Assembly: GCA_963681505.1 (NCBI GenBank)
Contig: OY811972.1
Span: 6,285,350-6,349,349 of the forward strand
DNA: 64,000 nucleotides
Direction of reading: 5' to 3'
DNA from: Eunapius fragilis
Lineage: Eukaryota > Porifera > Demospongiae > Spongillida > Spongillidae
In this document: positions 3,760-15,650 of the stretch, in pieces
Position numbering within the stretch: position 1 is the first letter of the stretch
Layout of the letters: each line of letters begins with the position of its first letter
Made by a program: the position numbers and the translations under genes
The notes under the pieces: model-generated
Databases searched by the model: none
What the model was told of the DNA's origin: nothing
What the model saw: only the letters and a program-made list of their open reading frames with translations

Positions 3760-4560
3760 TTGTTACTTTGTTTTATACATCCATGGACTATAGCTTCATT
3801 GCTACATTGCCGTCAAAACATTGATTTTTCATTCTATAAACCGTACGCTAGTGTTACAATTTTGTCCAATGAAGCTTACATGTGTCACCAACCTAACTAT
3901 GAAAAAGTGATAATTCTTCAAACCTTTTTGGAAATGCATAGACGCCGTTGTAATCTTTTGTATAGAGTGAATAAAGTTGTTCGTTCGAATATGCATTTTA
4001 CTCCAATTAGTGCTGGTATTTTTTAGATTCTATACGAGTGTTTATGGGCGCAAGCAGGGCCACCAAGAGGTGGGGAGCCATGGGGGCTGCTGACCCCGGG
4101 GCTCATGGTTAAACATGGGGCCTGGGTCGCCAGGCTGGTCTTTTATTTTATTTTTAATGTGTGATTGATGTTTTGTTGGATTATTGCGCAGGTGCAATAA
4201 AATTGTATATGTTCCTCAGATGTAATGCCATATCTAGCTATCTACACAACACCTCAAAAACATGACGCCCTCAGGTTTAAATGAGTGTGGTCCTCAGAGC
4301 TTACCCATTACTCGTACGTTTTATTTGGGGAAAAACACCAAGAAAAACGATGCCCTCCGTTGTGTAAAAAAAGTAAAATTAGTTTTAACTGGCTACTGTA
4401 TCAAATTTTACAATCTGCATATTTAATGGTCAACCCTCTTTTAACTGGCACCTGAAAATGGCATTTGTTAGATGTACTGAAAATGAGCTTCATCCAGATA
4501 CCAACTACTCACCTGTGCTGGCAATAACAGGCAAAGATATGATCCTGCAGTGACAATTAT
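3760..4560. other. Gene-free stretch with a hAT-end-like GC island
   Basis: No supported gene. At 4064-4140 the sequence turns GC-rich beginning cagggccaccaagaggtg, which resembles the CAGGG-type termini of hAT elements and may be the far end of the decayed hAT at 1.1-2.9 kb or of another copy; no matching partner was found. Confidence 0.3.
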
Positions 4561-4564
4561 CAGA

Positions 4565-5115
4565 GGGAAATCAAATATTCATAATGCTGTATTTCAGTAA
4601 CCATTGAATACCAAATTGGGTACAAGTCACATGCAAATGGATAAGTGAAGTTGCATCAACATTTGAACATGTGATGTGAAAACTCATGCCCACTTGTTTA
4701 GGAATGACCGTGCGGTTGTAGGGAAAAAAAGGATACTGCCCATCCTCGTACATAGCCATAGAACATGGTCTCCTCCTAGGCAACACATAACTCTGGATAG
4801 GAACACATTTAAACAGTGAAAATTTCACCAATAACTTCAGAATAGGCTGGAAGAGCCGCTTTCATATATAATAGCCGATGTTATATTTTGGTAGACAATC
4901 GACTATATGGTTTATGTATGACGCTTTAAATAGCATGTTAGGTATCTTTTTAAATAAAAGTAAAAATGGCTGTATCAAAACACTAACCGTCCGAGGGGTA
5001 TCAAGAAGACCCAGAAAAGAAACTTTTCGCTGGGAGAGTCCTGATTCTGCTCGCTTGGCAATGAGAGTGCAGTATGGCTTCCGAAGGCTAAGGATTTGAA
5101 GGCAATAGTGGAATC
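4565..5115. repeat. Dispersed repeat family, copy 1
   Basis: This stretch is related to 19640-20060 and in part to 23990-24080. Shared landmarks: ttctgaag..attggtg, ataggctg(g/a)aagagccgctttcat, gacaatcgactata, and ggagagtcctga. On the minus strand an open frame of about 73 codons follows a good acceptor (ttcctatccag, ~4785); it encodes an FPYNRTVIPKQ segment with two cysteines, so the repeat may carry, or derive from, a protein-coding exon. I do not recognise the product. Confidence 0.55.
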
Positions 5116-5241
5116 AACAAGGGTTAAATCACTGTAACTTGATTGGTCTGATGCAATTCCCTTTTTGTACAAATTATTCATGATTGTAAGAGTTATGATA
5201 TGGTGGGTTAAAAAAATATATATCGTTTCCATCCATAAACA

Positions 5242-5256
5242 CCCCCCCCCCCCCCC
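5242..5256. repeat. Poly-C run
   Basis: About 15 consecutive C. One of several long C or G runs in the window (also near 12.2, 13.8, 22.8 and 40.4 kb). Confidence 0.9.
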
Positions 5257-5329
5257 TCTAAATCTGAAATTTCATTGTGCTCTATGTAAAAATGTTTTAT
5301 TGTAAAACTACTACATTTTTCTTATGCAG

Positions 5330-5374
5330 CGGGGATAGTACTGATGATCAGTCGCCAATGAGAAAAAAAAGAAG
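5330..5374 (+). CDS. Candidate small orphan exon (basic, NLS-like)
   Basis: A 45-nt segment is bracketed by a good acceptor (cttatgcag) and donor (gtaatc) and reads GDSTDDQSPMRKKRR in one frame: acidic-serine residues followed by a basic cluster like a nuclear localisation signal. It would enter and leave in phase 2. No neighbouring exon on the plus strand could be recognised, so this may be an internal exon of a gene with long introns or chance. Function is unknown. Confidence 0.25.
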
Positions 5375-5749
5375 GTAATCAGTAAACTTTAAACTTAACA
5401 GTGCATTAGAAATTTCAACTGCTATATATTTTTATTTATCTGTTATCGAAAAGTAGCACAACAACCACTGCTCATTTCATCATGGAATTTCCGTAGAATC
5501 AAAGATATCTGTTTGAATACAGCAAACGTGTGATCTTTTTTGCTCATATTCCATGTATGATTTTGCGTGTTTTTCGTGCAAACTGTAATATTTTCAAAAC
5601 ATTAATGCACGCTTAATTTATTAATGCACGCTTAATTTAACTATTTGAGAAAATGAAATGATTCTTGCAGCTTTCTAAATAGTATGAATTAAAATTATGA
5701 ACTATCCATCCATAAGAAGAAAAGAGGCTCGTGAGGGCTGAAACTAGGG

Positions 5750-5905
5750 TAATAAAGAAGACGAAGGCGGTAGCAAGTACTGCTGTAACACCGTTCACCT
5801 CCAGAGACGTCGCTCCACGTGCGCGGTTCTCCCAGCGAAGATTGGCCCCTGCTTCAGCTGCGGGGAGCTCGGAAATTTAAGCCGATATTGTCCAAAGTCG
5901 GCCAC
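5750..5905 (+). pseudogene. Gag-like zinc-knuckle remnant (LTR-retroelement fossil)
   Basis: A plus-strand segment near 5840-5900 carries a CxxC....... C knuckle-like pattern (CFSCGELG..) following a basic stretch, as in Gag nucleocapsid regions of Ty3/gypsy-like retroelements. It is short, isolated and broken. Age appears old; no LTRs were identified. Confidence 0.3.
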
Positions 5906-6246
5906 AGCGAGGAGTTAGGTGGCAGCTGATAATGTGTTCAGTTGTGTACAGTGTAATTTCGTTGTGACAATTATGAATAGTTATCTGGAAAAAAAAGGGC
6001 ACCGGACGAGGCTGCGATAATGCTCGAATGGTAAGGAACAAGCAGGTGTATGGTATGTTGTAATCCAGGGGCAAGACCAGATGACGAGCTACATGTAGGT
6101 TAGGCAGTGTTAGGGGGGTGCATTCAGGTAAGCAATTGTGTTGAAATGCTTAGGTGGAGGTGGCCGCATATTGGCATGTTAGTAGCCGAGTAGATTGCCG
6201 TGTGTTGGCATGTTTCCATATAGGAATCCTGCAGTCATTTACAAAG

Positions 6247-6905
6247 TCACCCTAGCGGAACGGCCAAGACACCTAATGCAGGTGAATTTCTGCCAGAAGA
6301 TGGAGTTGAATGTGATTCATTGGTGGCTGATGGTGACTGAAGTCTTCTTGAAGGTGAACAGGACAATGACTTGTACACTTTAATATGAACTTTAATATGA
6401 ACATGCAATATGGCTAACTCTTGGAATTGTGGTGACAGGACCTTTTCCACATGATTGTGCTCATAAAAACCTTTTTGTAGACTCTTTGTGATCAAATAAG
6501 GTCTTTCTGAAGTATTTTTTCAGGACTAGTGTACCTAATTTACACTGTAAAAGATTGCCTTACTAAGTTTCTTATCATACAGCTTCTTCTGAGCAGAAAT
6601 AACGTTTTTCTGCACTCCCTCCAGTATAGCTGTGTACTGTGACTCTGCTGAATTTCGGTTTTCTGAGAACATATGGTAACTCTTCAGCTTCAGCTTAATT
6701 GCATGGCCCTTGATGTACACTAGCATCAAGCTCAAGAGGAAGAATGGCTCTGCGACCAAACATAATCTGAGTAAATTTTCATGTTTTGAAGTGTTGTAAG
6801 TACATGAGGAAGTGTCAAAATAATCATCCCATTTCTGTTTCTTTTCTTGTATGTACTTGCGGAGCATTTTTTGTACAGACTGATTTGTCTCTCAACTAAG
6901 CCATT
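6247..6905 (-). mobile_element. Integrase C-terminal fossil (Ty3/gypsy- or Ginger-like)
   Basis: Minus strand carries the C-terminal portion of a retroviral-type integrase: the family's QSNGLVER segment, a YNTSKHE motif, and a following KGFYE-type segment resembling the GPY/F module. The fragment is isolated, broken in a few places and without visible LTRs, so it is an old copy. Integrase families from gypsy retrotransposons and from Ginger DNA transposons look alike at this length, so I leave the class open. Confidence 0.6.
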
Positions 6906-6909
6906 GCTC

Positions 6910-7505
6910 TGTAGACAGGAAGCAGTTTAGCATAGTTATAAATTTAACTACTGAGGTGTTTCATAAGTGAAGGAAAAATTTACTGTAATAAGCAGTTTAA
7001 CGTATACTTGCTGATAAACATTCTACAATTGTGCATGCCCAAAAAAACAAAGTTTACATGTGTCTACAGCAATTATTAATATCTAACAAATTAAAAATAA
7101 TTAACAGCAATTAATACTTCCTGACATCATATTAGATTACTGAATTATATAACTATTATAAGCTTCATAGTGCTCATTTAATTGCAATCTATATACACAG
7201 TCATCTAATAAGTTCAAACAATTAGTAATCAACATTTGAAATCATGATTTCATTTATTTAGGAGGTGTTTTTGAGGTTTGAATCAATTTTTACAATTTCA
7301 GTCAATAAACCTTTTGCCCAGTCAAATTCTTTTTGGTTTTTTTTGTAGAAGGCTTCACCATCTCTCAAAGTAAGTGTTACAGCCTTCTTCTGATGACTCT
7401 TTTTTCGTTGCTGGTACTACCCTCAGGATACCTCCCATCGAACAAGTAAAGACATGCCTTTTCGATCAGATCTTCGCATGCACCATTTCTCTAACAGTTT
7501 CTGAT
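6910..7505. other. Gene-free stretch
   Basis: Very AT-rich sequence with no supported gene or repeat structure. Confidence 0.5.
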
Positions 7506-7509
7506 GCAG

Positions 7510-7654
7510 TAAAGGCCGACATACACGGGGCGACTCCCTGCCGATTATCGCCTTCAACTTACGGGTGAAAGTTCAGTAGTTTTTACGCATATTCATATGA
7601 GTTGCAGGCGATTAGTCGGCATGCAGGAAGTCGACCCGTGTATGTCGGCCTTTA
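7510..7654. mobile_element. 145-bp palindromic MITE
   Basis: Terminal inverted repeats of about 40 bp begin TAAAGGCCGACATACACGGG and end in its complement (cccgtgtatgtcggcctttA). The spacer is short and holds no gene. Ends are compatible with a TA target site (TA then AAGGCC at the left, GGCCTT then TA at the right), but the superfamily is undetermined. Confidence 0.8.
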
Positions 7655-7669
7655 CATGTGCTTTCACAC

Positions 7670-8160
7670 TTCTAAACGCATGCGCGCTTCGAGTAGGACC
7701 GTTTGTGGCGGCGGAGGACCAAATATATATGCTGACATATTTTGTCCGGCTGGACCAAATTTTGTCCCGGACCGAATATTTTGTGACAGACCACAAAAGC
7801 TTCCTCACTTCGCGCGGGTTGGGCGACACACCCTCCCGCACCCTCACCCCATTGATTACTCATATCCGACACCCCATAGAATTCCTGTATCCGCCGTGTG
7901 ATAATGACATTGAACCCACCTCAAAAGCACCCCAAGCTGGACCTGGTGTCTCTGATGGGAAACATGTCTGCAATGCACTCGTGTCCGCAGCTGAGCCATT
8001 AATCTCCAGTGAATAATGACCGAAAAGTGGTCCGGTTAAAACTTTGCAACCGGGTCGGCGGGGACAGCCCTGCTGAGCGCTGGTAGAAGAATTGCCCACC
8101 CCCTTGCACATTTTACAGCGGCGACGGAACCGTGGCCGCGGAACCGCCATGGCGGCTCCA
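7670..8160. other. GC-rich island without a supported gene
   Basis: The base composition is clearly higher in G+C than the surroundings, and open frames exist on both strands, but none shows a recognisable domain. The right edge (about 8112-8150, cagcggcgacggaaccg) resembles a hAT-type terminus. Possibly a nonautonomous element body; unresolved. Confidence 0.3.
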
Positions 8161-8215
8161 CTTTTTATACCGGTGATTAGTTATTCATGATGTTATTAAG
8201 TATTCATAGCAGTTA

Positions 8216-8410
8216 CAGTGCCGGTTCGGTCATAGAGAAAATTCGCAGCTCGATCATAGAGAAAATAAAGCGTATACATTGGTAACTAAGAAACCATTAG
8301 TGGTCATAGCAACCGCTATGAAAACTAATAGTTGGCTTAGTACCAATGAATGCGCTTTATTTTCTCAATGTTCGAGCTTGCGAAATTTCTCTACGACCCA
8401 GCCGGTACTG
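8216..8410. mobile_element. 195-bp Tc1/mariner-like MITE with TA target site
   Basis: Foldback element: left arm begins CAGTGCCGGTTCGGTCATAG, right arm ends in the near complement (cgacccagccggtactg). It is flanked by TA on both sides (8214-8215 and 8411-8412), the Tc1/mariner target duplication. Arms are about 90 bp, leaving almost no spacer. The CAGT(G/A)CCGG terminus resembles that of the larger element at 38479-39559. Confidence 0.85.
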
Positions 8411-8430
8411 TATATCGCTGTGAGCAGGAG

Positions 8431-8494
8431 CATAGATAATAGAGTAATTATAGTTTTCTGCCTGTTTCCTCTTGTATCTACTCTATTATCTATG
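8431..8494. repeat. Hairpin with 16-bp perfect arms
   Basis: catagataatagagta (8431-8446) is followed after 32 nt by its exact complement (8479-8494). It lies just outside the preceding MITE. Confidence 0.85.
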
Positions 8495-9012
8495 GCAGAA
8501 GGCATCACTGTGAGTGATAATCATTTCAACTTTTAGCTGCTATACTGTATACATGCTGCTCTCCACGTGATTTGTGTTTCTAAAGAAAGTATCTTCACGT
8601 TACTAGGTGGACCACCAATGCGGAGTGCCTTGGAAGGATTTTGTCTAATTATAAAGTGTTGTTTAAATATGGGGAGGAATCGCTGCATACTTTAAAGAAA
8701 CAGAGGTGAAATATAGAATAATAGGCGTAAAAGCATGTATGGAATCGTTTGATTTCCTGTTTGGTTTGATGTTATAGGTCAAACTGTACAGTGACAATCT
8801 AAGTTAGACACTCGATCCAGCAGCAAATGTGCAAGTATGCACCGTCGTATATTTTCTTTGAAGCACTACTGAGACGTGATAATTATAACCTGTGGTATTT
8901 AATTATTTCATAATGGTAGGTATCTTAAAACATTATGACTACAACAGTACCTACACTGTATAAATACGTGTTACCTCACAATGTCAATTTCATACAATAC
9001 ATTTGCGATCTC

Positions 9013-11757
9013 TCATAAGAAGTAACCTTTGAGATGAAGCCAGTATCGTTTCAGCTGTCTAAATGGTATAACATAGAGAAAGCATACTATGGGATGAATG
9101 CCCAATAGAATGTAGGCGAGAGCAGACATGGCCGCATTATTCAGGGATTGATAAGCTTTCTTTTCACCCTCACAATCTCGAGTCAAATCATTTCCAGCTG
9201 CTTCACATGCAAAGTATTTTATAACAGCTGAGATCCATGGATCAATTGATTTAACATTTAGCGTAAATCCTAAAAGGCACTCTGATCCAAGTAAGATGCA
9301 GTAGCTGAAGATAATCAGTAGCCTTTTCTCCGCTGAACCAAAATGGATTTTAGTTCTGCATTTTTGACCTGCAGTAGTAGCTGTGCTTTGATGCTAATAT
9401 GAAGAGTGGCTATAAGAGTACCAGTATTGTTAGTAGTGATAAATGAAGTTACCTTGATTATTATGATGAGTACCATGACCAGTAGTGATGTACCAGTAGC
9501 CAAAATAATACTGGAAGGAAGAACAATGGTGTAGTAGGCAGCCTCTCTGCTTTTTGACACACAAAGACGAGGAGGGTAATTGCTGGTAACGAAACCCCCA
9601 GTTGAGAAACTAGCAATGACAGGAATGGTAGGCACAAAGAGTGCCAGCAGCACAACCAGCAGGTGGATCATTCTGCTTTTTTCAAATTGTTTTGCATAAA
9701 ATGGAAACTTTATTTTCCAGAATAGTGCTGTCATATGACATAACCACCATATGGCCACTTGGAGAATAGCATAGTAGTACACAGACCTTGTAATGTGTGA
9801 TGAGATAAATTGTTCAATCAGCAAAAGGAATAAGACTAATGCTGGACAACCTACAATATAAAAATAATTAATGATAGCAGTCCTGTTAATTAGTATATGC
9901 ATTCGTTTTTTTTTGCTATTTGCAATTCATTTAATGATGATGATGAAGCAGAAACAATACTCTCATTAGCCATAGTTTACAATTTAGTACTCAGTGACAC
10001 ACTGATGGCAATGTAATGTACAGCTATCATTAAAGGTGCCTGTGGAAAATCTGGGCTTTTTCCTATGTACATGAGGTTTATCTTTCTTCGATTGTTTGGT
10101 TCATTTGTCATGTCATGATTTCATAAGGGCAGTGAGTCATGAAATTTATTAACCACCATTTACACTGATCCATCATTAATCTTGTTGACAGTTTAAAAAT
10201 TAGCCAATATTATGTTACTCCTAATAAGGATGGCTAAAATGGTCCTTTATCGTTACCTTTTGGAGATCTGAATATGCAGTTTTACATATTGAATTGAAAA
10301 AAGTATTTTGGTAATACAACTGATAAGCTTATAATTTTAGAATGGTCTGTTCATTTTCAGATGCTAACAAGGATTTTTTTCTTTGTCAATGTACTGGAAG
10401 ATGCAAGCATCAAATCAATGACAACAGTTTAGCACAGGTATTAAAGGGCACTGCCTTATTTAGGAGTATGTTTTCATTAATTCACCTTGCTTACCGCAAA
10501 ATGAACAAAACACAGTTGAATTTTCCACTGCTTCAATCAAATTCTTCGAACTGCAGTATAGTGTTGTCCGGTCAGTAAATGATACAAGAACATTACCATC
10601 TGGATCAATTGTATGAACAAACACCAAATAACTGCACTGCAAATTAAATATTGAAACGATTGCATTAATCAATACAAGGCTCATTACATTACATATTTTG
10701 GCTATCCTGCCCAGCTGATCACTGGTTACCTTGCACTAGATCAGCATTTGTCATTTAGCTAATCGTGTAGAACAATAACTACTACTCATTCTCTATTTTG
10801 CAATGTAACCCTATGGATATACCTATTATTTGATGTGTTCCCTACTTGAAGTCTTAGGTTACTTTATTACTTTGCTTTTGCTCTTGCAGAGAAAAAAACT
10901 AAGCAAAATTTATTAACTCACTTAGAATGAATATGGCAACATTCATGTAAACTATAAGGACTGTGGGAAATGCAAACCTGAAAACAAAATAAGGTGCTTT
11001 AAAATAGGAAACAGAAAGCATTGTGCAACATTACATTCTTTCCCGCCATATGCACGAAAACATCAGAACAAGGATTCCAAATCCAAAGCCTACAATACTT
11101 GATAGAAGAAAAATAGTATCCACAGCTAATGATGTTTTATCATCGTACTGCTTCCATTTACCACACTGTGGTGGACAGGTTCCATTACTGAGGAAGAATT
11201 GGTCGTTGCAGATTTTTTGTGTTGAATTAGCTGGTAGAACAATCTCCCTATCAACCTCTAAGGAAGTGCATGGTCCAGAATGATTTAGTAAAAAAGCTAG
11301 CAATAAATTCTCTTGTGCAAGACTATATAATAATATTACCTCTGCAGATACTTTCATTCGTCATGGTCGTCATGGCGAGGCTTTCACAGTTAGGAAGTAT
11401 CTTCTTAATATTTGGAAAGATATTTTGTACCTTTTGCCACTCATCATTGCATACCACTGTGCTGATCTCTATACACTGATCTCTGCTAGGTCTGAAATTT
11501 GTTCCATTACCATCACACAGAGGGAATAGGTACAGACACATGAATGGCACAAGTGAGGAGATTCACTCCTTTTTTGCACCCAGAATGAGGAAGCCATTCA
11601 AAATGAGCTGGGCTGTACGTTCACTGGCTTCCTGGTCAACGTTTTCTGTGATTGCCACATTGTTGTTGGTCAGTTGGGTTCCGGGAAGGCATGCCTTGGC
11701 CTCAATTAATGCCTGCTGGCATGTTGATTTTGAGTAGTTAGCACAACCTATTGAAGT
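9013..11757 (-). CDS. Frizzled-like Wnt receptor, six exons, in-frame TGA in the CRD
   Basis: Seven-pass receptor of the Frizzled class, expected to bind Wnt ligands at the plasma membrane. Exons read from phase and splice sites: 11757-11340 (CRD), 11296-11035 (ectodomain linker, TM1), 10977 to about 10918/10922 (TM2, MFAFPTVLIVY), about 10631/10636-10495 (loop, VENSTVFCSFC), 9850-9422 (TM3-TM5; VAIWWLCHM matches the family's WW in TM3), 9368-9013 (TM6-TM7, stop TGA). Clear introns are 43 nt (11297-11339), 57 nt (10978-11034) and 53 nt (9369-9421). The CRD has FMC.Y.FPLC and FRPSRDQC. A TGA at 11563-11565 is in frame and replaces the cysteine expected nine residues before FMC. The tail ends RQLKRYWLHLKGYFL: the Dishevelled-binding KTxxxW is not conserved. 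The TM2/loop junction is ambiguous and the signal-peptide exon was not fixed (candidates at 11.88-12.06 kb). Confidence 0.85.
11563..11565 (-). other. In-frame TGA at a conserved CRD cysteine
   Basis: The reading frame is identical on both sides (upstream ..NGFLILGAKKE, downstream ISSLVPFMCLYLFPLC). Residue spacing TGA-8 aa-C-6 aa-C equals the C-x8-C-x6-C spacing of Frizzled CRDs, so one base change from TGT/TGC explains it. A frameshift is excluded because the frame does not change. Confidence 0.8.
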
Positions 11758-12188
11758 CTATTGAGAAGAGTGAATTTATGAAACGGATTTAGACATCATT
11801 AAACCATGGTTATGTTTCTAAAGAATATTTTATGTTAATCACAGGACAAATCATACTCCTTAAATAAATGCATATATAGATCCATAAGCACAGATCAAAT
11901 ACGTACATGCAATATAATCGATAAAATCATCGTGCTTGAGATAAGGAAAAGAGATCGCTACAGTTAATGAAATACATGTAATAGCAATAAAAAAAGTACC
12001 GCATCGATAGATGTAGAAAAACGGAATTTTATCCCATACGGCGCATCATATATCGGTGCTCAAAACCTGTTGATAATTGAAGAATAGATTTTTGACTCAT
12101 TTGTGCATGCAGATTGCTTTTTGTCTGAACCCAAAATCCTCGTATTCTTATTTCACAAAACCGCCCATTTGTTAACAGTATATTGTAA

Positions 12189-12205
12189 CCCCCCCCCCCC
12201 CCCCC
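12189..12205. repeat. Poly-C run
   Basis: Seventeen consecutive C. Confidence 0.9.
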
Positions 12206-13815
12206 TGAATTGTACTGTGCTCGCTCGCGACCTCCTGAGCCACTGAGTTACTCTAAACTCATTCATTCGTTACGCAGCGTGCATGAAATGAAAGCCACTT
12301 TCCAATCCTGGAATCTTTATATCCATGCATATAATGTGTCCCCCATTGCATTAAGTTAGGAAACTAGTCTGCATTCAGATTGTGCATGTCAATGAACGGC
12401 TCGCGCATCGTGGAACGCAATGCAATAGTTGTGGCACCAAACTAGGTACAGAAGGCAGAGCCCTGAAAATAACTCTACTACATGTATATATGTCACTTTA
12501 CAATTCTACAGCTGGTCAACCAGTAAAGATCATCTTCCTGTCCGGCTGGGTCATTTGTATATTCATGCAATGGAGCTACGTGCAGCCTAATGTACGTGAT
12601 CATTTTCAGTGAGAGAACAACGAAAGAATGATAGCCATCGAACGCCTTAGTTACATGCAGGAGTCATTAAAAAATGCAGCTATTTGACGTTACAGTGTAG
12701 CCAAAAACGTGTGTACTTTAACCTTCCTTAGCTCGACCGATAAATCGCGCGGAACATAATGGATAGGTTCACTTGCACGCCTTGTTTTACGGTTTCAAAA
12801 GGATTTAGGGCTTAGTTATATCGGCTCGATCCATCCTTAAACGACTTGTGCCGTAGCATTTAGTGTACTAGATCACTAAATACCAAACAGCAAAACGTTA
12901 TTTTCTGTGCATGCACCCAGTTGTGATATTCAGAGCAATAGACATAAAATATAGATCGCGTTTACTTTGCATCTAGGGTGACATATGTAACCATGATTTT
13001 GAAAAATGAAAATCGATTATTTTGACTATGAAAAAACAAAAGTCTTATCCACTTTTCATGTTTGCAAATCTGTTATGTTGGTGATTATATCCTAAGTTGT
13101 CCGATTTTTAACATTGGCATGAACGATAAATCACTGTAACAGTTCCTCAAGTCGATATATTGCCAGAACTTTTGTCGTTATTTCTTCTAGCTTATTCCGT
13201 TATAAATCATTAAAACAACACGCGTGCTATAGTTGTAATTCATTGTTTTAACCACATGCCCCTCAGAAATTCTAAAAACCAACAATTAAGTGGCAGAAAC
13301 AAACTTTAAACCTCACGGACATACGTGGAAGAATGCCGCTTCACTTCACGACATGTAAGATTATTCAGGATGTCAAGATAGTAATCAAACGCTCTACGTA
13401 CTCTTAGCACCAGCTAATTATAAGTGTTCTAGTGCTTTCCAAGGTGTCCCTATATACTTTGGTGCACGCGTTTCCAGACATTCACCAAGTACTGCGGTAA
13501 AGTCATACAAATGTCATAAATTGCCACCAGATATTTTAGTATTGATTAGACTGGGAAGCCGACGGATGGTTACCTTGACTCCGGTTCCCGGACTAAGTGT
13601 TGATTACGTAAAATTTCTCATCGTTCCGTTTAGTTAACCTATGTTAATATTTGAAGTCATTGTCAGGTAGGTAGGAAGGGCACGCAAAAGGAAGGGAACG
13701 ATTATCAACAAATGAAACTAAGAAACTGAAAACAGAATCGTTTATATCGACAAAAGAAAATTGGTTACTCTGTGCTAAATTAGTGCTAAATTGGTAAACG
13801 CAAATAGTCGAATAA

Positions 13816-13833
13816 CCCCCCCCCCCCCCCCCC
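13816..13833. repeat. Poly-C run
   Basis: Eighteen consecutive C, followed by tcccaccc. Confidence 0.9.
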
Positions 13834-14763
13834 TCCCACCCAAAAAAATAACCGTTACACACCAACTTACATGTATATCAGTTGGATTAATGCATAAGTA
13901 AGCATTAACATGGATTTGGGGAAATCTGGGTACAGGTATGTAGGCTTCGGCCACGTTCATACTGTACAAATCGGTTTTAGAAGGCCTGCGCCGAATCTCC
14001 ATGCTTCAACGCGTAATTTTCACGAATTGAGATACCACGGTGTCGTGCGGAACCATGGCCGTCTGCGACCATTAAAGTTGGCCTAATATCGAAATGATAA
14101 CGTCATTCACTAGCAACGAGCCTTGACAACCACAGACCTGTGAAACTTGAGGCTACATGAGTTCAGTTACCATTCTACAAGCCATATCAATAACAAATGA
14201 GTGAAATTGAACAATGCAATTTACTATACACAACTATGATTAAATATAAAATGAAAGTGAAAAGGCATCGTGTGGCTATTGTTATTAACGATTGTATTGA
14301 CCCCAGTACTAATAATTTTGTAAACAGAATTTCTTCCAAGGCGGGCAACGCATGGATCATACCAAAATTGCTGTATTGCTATCTAAATAGCAAGAAATTA
14401 CGCCTTTTGGCCGCGTCAGTTTATAAGTGCGGGAAATAGTTACTATTTTATTAGTACAGTATTGTATTTGTACTGTAGAAGTGCGTCTTTTGCTACTACA
14501 TACTAACGCTGAAATGTTTGTTTTTGAATCATCAGATGTTAGTTATATCGCTCTTCCGAGGCTATTGTTTCTACTTTACCATTCAAAAATCAAACGCCTG
14601 ATCACCATCACCATTCTGCAATTACATTTTTTAAATGAAGAATAAAAATAAATAAATAAATCCAATGGTCTGGGTACGATACTAACGGTTTTCATATATC
14701 TACGACCACGCAATTTAATAAGCATCGTAAGAGACACAACCATCAGCCCTGTGAATTGGGCTA

Positions 14764-15100
14764 TTAATAGGACAATAGTGCCTTTTCATTAATAAAGATA
14801 ATCACAGCAGAAAACATCATTGAGCACGCAAGTGTGATGTGTTCCATGGACTGTAATGTGATGTATTCTGGGTATGAGACTAGTTTGTCTGACAAAGCAG
14901 CCTTCCTGGAAGTCAAAAGCATGGAACTTCGGACCTTTCCTTCAGGGCCCGCACTAGTAATGCTCCGACTAAGCACCATCTCTCCTGAAGCAGAGACTGG
15001 GGAAAGTGCCAGTCATTCACCATCAGGCAGCAGTCTAGTATCAGTTCGAATCCAACCTCCAGTTTCCACTATCATGCTCCAACTATACACCAGCACTGAG
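14764..15100 (-). pseudogene. Possible fragment of a membrane-protein exon
   Basis: Minus strand reads GGWIRTDTRLLPDGE, a stop, then (same frame) a serine-rich segment (SRSITSAGPEGKVRSSM) and a hydrophobic stretch (ITLACSMMFSAVIIFI) followed by a short tail and stop. The layout resembles the end of a type I membrane protein, but the frame is interrupted near 15053 and no splice pair is convincing. I do not recognise the protein. Confidence 0.25.
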
Positions 15101-15650
15101 ACTTATGATTCCGCAGAGTAACTGTCAGTTGTGCATGTGCATGATTTATATTAATAAGCCTCCCAAAGCAAGGTTTTATAAATGACTAAGGCCATGACAA
15201 TACCGTTGAAAGCCGCTATACCTTGGGAAGAACCACATTTAACTTTTAAGCGCTTGGTACAAGACGGAAAAATTTCTGTCGGCAGCCTGAAACAGACTAC
15301 TAATGACGAGAGAAGGTACTTACAAATAGATACTTTGCAATAGTGATTGAGCAGTGTACTAGACACGCTTGAAATAGTGTGCAAATGTACATGTATTGGA
15401 ATCACGGCGGTACAATTACATTTTTTTGCTTGCTTGACCCGGGTAGGAACAGCTGCCATATTCTGAGATGTAATAGGAGATTTTGGTCATTCACTTGTCA
15501 CGCATTGACTGGTAGGTTCTTTAACCCTGCATGGATAGACTCTGCTCCTTGGTCCAGAAGGAGGCCAAAACCACCAGCAACTGTTGAACTGGATTAATAC
15601 CCACCAAATTCACTGGCCTCTCTTCCTTCAATGAACATTTGGTCAAAAAT

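Follow-up and report, generated by a model that had tools for sequence, protein, structure and literature searches.

Duplicated (unprocessed) pseudogenes are known in large receptor gene families, such as the olfactory receptors of vertebrates. In sponges, three full-length Frizzleds and eight or nine Frizzled-like sequences are reported for Amphimedon in the available part of PMC4302439, and 22 selenoproteins are tabulated for Amphimedon in the available part of PMC3473315. A limited look at the literature (available parts of PMC4302439, PMC12716839, and PMC10280926) returned no report of a sponge Frizzled expansion as large as the one described here, and the entries listed by a literature search included no description of a selenocysteine Frizzled.

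The window analyzed here is the whole 64,000-nucleotide stretch (C2:6285350-6349349) of a genome of 219 Mb in 24 contigs. The first-pass annotation had placed an in-frame TGA, with open frame on both sides, at a conserved cysteine of a Frizzled CRD and had read the surrounding spacing as C-x8-C-x6-C. Indeed, we found a TGA at 11565-11563 of the minus strand within an otherwise open Fz-CRD exon (11748-11340), where it takes the position of the first cysteine so that the spacing reads stop-x8-C-x6-C. The TGA is the sole stop in the exon frame, which runs from GCANYSKSTC through GAKKE, the stop, and ISSLVPFMCLYLFPLC to ESICR; around the TGA the translation reads LILNGFLILGAKKE, the stop, and ISSLVPFMCLYLFPLCDGNG. 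Exon models were made with a purpose-written protein-to-genome spliced aligner, using as reference a relative on contig C14 (2,873,036) in which all six exons connect without a break in the frame. The features of the gene are as follows (copies B to F are paralogs listed further below):

11340..11748, minus strand: Fz-CRD exon with the TGA; upstream end placed from homology
11563..11565, minus strand: in-frame TGA at the first cysteine of C-x8-C-x6-C; TGT in copies B, C, and D, TGC in copies E and F
11035..11296, minus strand: exon 2, from spliced alignment; upstream end uncertain
10922..10977, minus strand: exon 3
10495..10636, minus strand: exon 4; its join to exon 3, solely via a 5-base exon, is uncertain
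9788..9789, minus strand: splice acceptor for the main 7TM exon (AA here, AG in copies B to F); probable second lesion
9453..9787, minus strand: main 7TM exon (exon 5)
9013..9355, minus strand: last exon, closing with the TGA stop (9015-9013); the alignment connects it to exon 5 only with a frameshift

We searched the whole genome with the Pfam Fz domain (PF01392) and found 65 matches, 43 of which were marked above the family cut-off. The TGA-bearing exon (C2:6296723-6297016, E 4.6e-4) is among the weaker matches, with 27.9 bits against a curated cut-off of 32.1, and is the only one of the 65 with a stop inside the match. When the exon was split, the second half alone matched at E 3.2e-5 while the first half gave no match. 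At E up to 1 the main 7TM exon of the window drew no Pfam match, and neither it nor the last exon gave more than chance-level matches. The Frizzled/Smoothened membrane region (PF01534) was matched by two of seven aligned relatives (best E 9.4e-11). A profile of these seven relatives, some of them partial, was compared with the PDB at E up to 1 and matched ROR2 (E 6e-7) and Smoothened (E 0.2), both through the CRD, as well as two caspase-4 sequences (E 0.5). By these matches the CRD is an Fz domain, and the gene family is probably a divergent branch of the Frizzled-like receptors. The Frizzled-like family is large in this genome, with 65 Fz-domain matches and 63 matches to the main 7TM exon of the window, many of them clustered on C14.

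Five close copies of the CRD exon lie on the same chromosome, C2, and are 88-99% identical to it over the exon. Each of them has a cysteine codon at the site:

Copy B, C2 6.098 Mb: 99% identity over the exon, TGT at the site
Copy C, C2 5.978 Mb: 98% identity over the exon, TGT at the site
Copy D, C2 5.863 Mb: 98% identity over the exon, TGT at the site
Copy E, C2 6.128 Mb: 93% identity over the exon, TGC at the site
Copy F, C2 6.693 Mb: 88% identity over the exon, TGC at the site
6000..15500 of the window, no strand: duplicated block, with four more occurrences on this contig (C2 5.86-6.14 Mb)

The duplication extends well beyond the exon. A block of approximately 9.5 kb or larger is repeated several times within approximately 0.45 Mb of one chromosome; the flank at 6000-8900 is 93-98% identical at four other places (one without the first 316 bases of the query), and the flank at 13500-15500 is 96-97% identical at four other places (two of them partial). 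Comparison with the C2 copies shows that at this locus the introns were kept and the flanks were duplicated along with the gene. The duplicated 3' flank also holds a dispersed repeat at 6270-7309, with many copies of 76-83% identity on other contigs, and a second one at 8214-8415 that matches both strands, as a palindromic element would.

Beyond the close copies, a scan for C-x8-C-x6-C with the first residue left free found the motif at 30 distinct places, of which this locus alone has TGA and the other 29 have TGT or TGC, counted by coordinates over 68 of the 91 fetched loci; the count leaves out loci whose other Fz matches lack the motif, and about half of the 65 Fz matches lie outside the scan. 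A further copy at C14:2.316 Mb is one residue off the motif and has a cysteine at the site as well. Stops elsewhere in the exon were found among the relatives, namely a TAA in copy E, a TAA in a copy on C22, and a TGA and a TAG in a piece on C18, and the stop-bearing family members at C18:1885352 and C22:2711549 hint at more decayed copies. Three other loci (C20:37821, C14:2811708, and C14:2794180) have the same match score to the CRD exon of the window, as would be expected if they were copied very recently or if the assembly duplicated one of them; the copy at C20:37821 is followed by a run of N.

We asked how surprising it is that a stop should fall on a conserved cysteine. In copy B, cysteine codons provide 26 of the 199 single-base routes to a stop, nine of these 26 falling in the CRD, and 26 of the 72 single-base routes to TGA. 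Approximately one in eight random nonsense changes would thus strike a cysteine, which makes the coincidence mild. The TGA lies on a conserved cysteine because the protein is cysteine-rich and every cysteine codon is one base away from TGA. As an event, a TGA at this cysteine requires no special cause.

The TGA is probably not the only disabling change private to this copy. In all five close paralogs the main 7TM exon is preceded by an AG acceptor, whereas the corresponding bases here, 9789-9788, read AA; the context is ACATTACAG followed by GGTCTG in copies B, C, D, E, and F and ACATTACAAGGTCTG in this copy, which differs at base 9788. Using the next AG, a single base further along, would shift the frame. 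By our count by eye, an alternative AG at 9852-9851 would keep the frame and add 21 codons, and a frame that stays open if this AG serves as acceptor counts against a pseudogene. In both copy F and the C14 relative (2,873,036) a stop interrupts the added stretch in frame, and the main 7TM exon of that relative begins at the equivalent ACAG, so the stretch is probably intron and the loss of the acceptor is graded as a probable lesion. Copy F has a TAA in its 7TM region that was rejected as a lesion because it falls within an intron of the spliced alignment, which reports neither a stop nor a frameshift for this copy. The first-pass annotation, which may have used the AG at 9852-9851 as acceptor, had described the rest of the gene as intact; this part of its account is doubtful, given that the frame-keeping AG is probably intronic and that the acceptor is AA here and AG in five of five paralogs.

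Two junctions are problematic across the C2 group and were kept out of the lesion counts. In each of the six C2 copies the aligner connected exons 3 and 4 only by way of a 5-base exon, and exons 5 and 6 join only with a frameshift in five of the six (this copy and copies B to E, not F); these may be shared old lesions, a missed exon, or a modelling fault. Lesions of their own are carried by three of the five paralogs, which supports a pseudogene here: in copy B, exon 2 lacks one base and exon 6 contains a TAA; copy D has a 5-base insertion in its last exon; and copy E has a 1-base deletion as well as a TAA. For copy D a TAG was also listed where exons 1 and 2 meet, but it lies in a poorly aligned stretch and was left uncounted. 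Junction problems aside, the spliced alignment gave no stop or frameshift private to copies C and F.

The pattern of divergence was also considered. Across 9013-13255, this copy and copy B show 12 differences in 1490 exon positions and 17 in the remaining 2751, which are similar rates. Ka is 0.008 and Ks 0.009 (Ka/Ks 0.89), with stops and codons near the exon 1/2, 3/4, and 5/6 joins left out; the ten codon-level differences (2.5 synonymous and 7.5 replacement) are not enough to establish neutrality. Apart from the TGA, five codons (six bases) are changed in this copy alone, and each of these changes replaces a residue; a sixth apparent change reflects how losing the acceptor alters the frame. 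Deeper comparisons, between other pairs of the C2 group, gave Ka/Ks of 0.39-0.66, and those between the C2 copies and relatives G, H, and I on C14 gave 0.33-0.42. Relative to copy F, indels are rarer in exons (2 in 1481 columns) than elsewhere (80 in 2520). The lower Ka/Ks at depth and the few exon indels imply that the group was constrained for a time. Thus the C2 group seems, from these substitution patterns, to have been constrained earlier and relaxed recently. The deeper C2 values, the few exon indels, and the absence of own lesions in copies C and F all count against a pseudogene.

Taken together, the certain disabling change and the probable one, both private to this copy, make it most likely a pseudogene, and we hold with considerable confidence that it arose recently by duplication of a Frizzled-like receptor gene and still has its introns. 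The first-pass annotation had preferred a nonsense allele or pseudogene, and this preference is supported by the cysteine in five of five paralogs, the AA at the acceptor, and the lesions in sister copies. The similar divergence from copy B inside and outside exons, the residue-replacing private changes, the duplicated flanks, and the lack of a SECIS match in the stretches searched also favour this reading. Several copies of the block lie on C2. Comparison with these copies shows that a single T-to-A difference separates the TGA from a cysteine codon, presumably a change from cysteine to stop in this copy, and that a second change lies at the acceptor that relatives use for the main 7TM exon, which it would remove. 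An mRNA, if transcribed, would encode a peptide that stops inside the CRD and has no membrane part, and would probably be subject to nonsense-mediated decay. Other copies are decaying independently, and relatives with fully aligned frames persist elsewhere in the genome, so the loss was probably tolerated. To account for the TGA, nothing more is needed than a simple T-to-A nonsense mutation in a copy that is redundant; the TGA may also be a segregating allele.

An error in the assembly, with a true cysteine codon and a gene copy intact at the site, is the improbable alternative that survives best. The site differs from its closest copies by a single base, as such an error would; the further private change that removes a splice acceptor 1.8 kb away and the lesions that copies B, D, and E carry of their own speak against it. 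Moreover, mis-polishing among copies would tend to copy the base of a sister and not to create a new one.

Still less probable is rescue by splicing, in which a 75-base intron (11566-11492) ending in TTTCAG removes the stop and keeps the frame. Of the 128 GT...AG pairs that span the TGA, 33 keep the exon frame open, this pair among them, but a fraction of 33 in 128 indicates that such pairs are common by chance, and the explanation was not favoured. The intron would also remove the site itself together with two further cysteines, so that the CRD would hardly fold, and the other lesion would remain. The TGA change itself turns GTGTAT into GTGAAT at 11566, in frame with the TTTCAG 75 bases on; GTGAAT is nearer the donor consensus than GTGTAT.

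A UGA recoded as selenocysteine in the CRD, which the first-pass annotation had offered as its third option, was rejected as very improbable: no SECIS was found in the stretches searched, while the same kind of search succeeds on the control, the relatives examined have cysteine, and a second lesion is probable. The reading draws on a UGA at a position that is cysteine in relatives and on the capacity of the genome. A tRNA-Sec match reaches 73.7 bits against a cut-off of 47 (the same model also matches in all 14 control genomes, above cut-off in 5), and a glutathione peroxidase (GPx) match on C10 contains an in-frame TGA (frame VASEUGLT), so that the organism seems, from these matches, able to insert selenocysteine. 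As a positive control we used the 2 kb around this GPx, where Rfam SECIS_1 matched on the same strand, downstream of the GPx matches (24.3 bits, E 0.083). The region searched at the window's gene was:

7000..9015, minus strand: 3' region searched for SECIS; no match up to E 10

No SECIS was found in these 2,016 bases from the stop of the Frizzled-like gene onward at E up to 10, nor in the surrounding 10 kb (4000-14000) at E up to 5. The control score is below the Rfam gathering score of 35, and an unusual SECIS could therefore escape detection; we give almost no credence to selenocysteine insertion through a SECIS that the Rfam model missed or that lies outside the searched stretch. The UGA is present in one copy only, with cysteine at 29 of 29 other motif places in this genome, and the copy has a further probable lesion. 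The site would be that of a CRD disulfide cysteine and not a redox site; if true, the reading would place selenocysteine in a Wnt-receptor-type disulfide domain. A genome-wide SECIS search, which scored 134 of 3341 candidates, gave two matches below cut-off (C8, 33 bits, E 0.0088; C17, 27.2 bits, E 0.35); inspection of the surrounding frames by eye showed no selenoprotein, and neither was used as a control. The GPx SECIS was absent from the matches listed by that search, so its silence on the window says little. The Rdx family (PF10262) was of no use as a control, with three partial matches without stops.

Our data indicate that the case is ordinary and that the selenocysteine option can for now be set aside, a tempting reading having been tested against a positive control from the same genome. 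It illustrates how such signals arise, in that a single base change can produce TGA at many points of a young duplicate that is rich in cysteine. The more interesting lead is that one genome has dozens of Frizzled-like loci, among which copies are made and lost.

The locus resembles Frizzled receptors in having an Fz-domain exon followed by 7TM exons, and two of the seven aligned relatives match PF01534, whereas the 7TM exon of the window itself matches none of the Pfam families at that threshold of E up to 1. The Frizzleds of Amphimedon, as described in the available part of PMC4302439, comprise far fewer loci than this genome. Like selenoprotein genes with cysteine homologs, for example the GPx of this genome, the locus has a TGA where relatives have cysteine; unlike them, it has no SECIS found in the searched stretches, a UGA in no relative examined, and a further probable lesion. 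Although the family here is Frizzled-like, with a cysteine-rich domain, the putative pseudogene is like the olfactory receptor pseudogenes of vertebrates, which are young duplicates in a large family with introns kept and with copy-specific stops and frameshifts.
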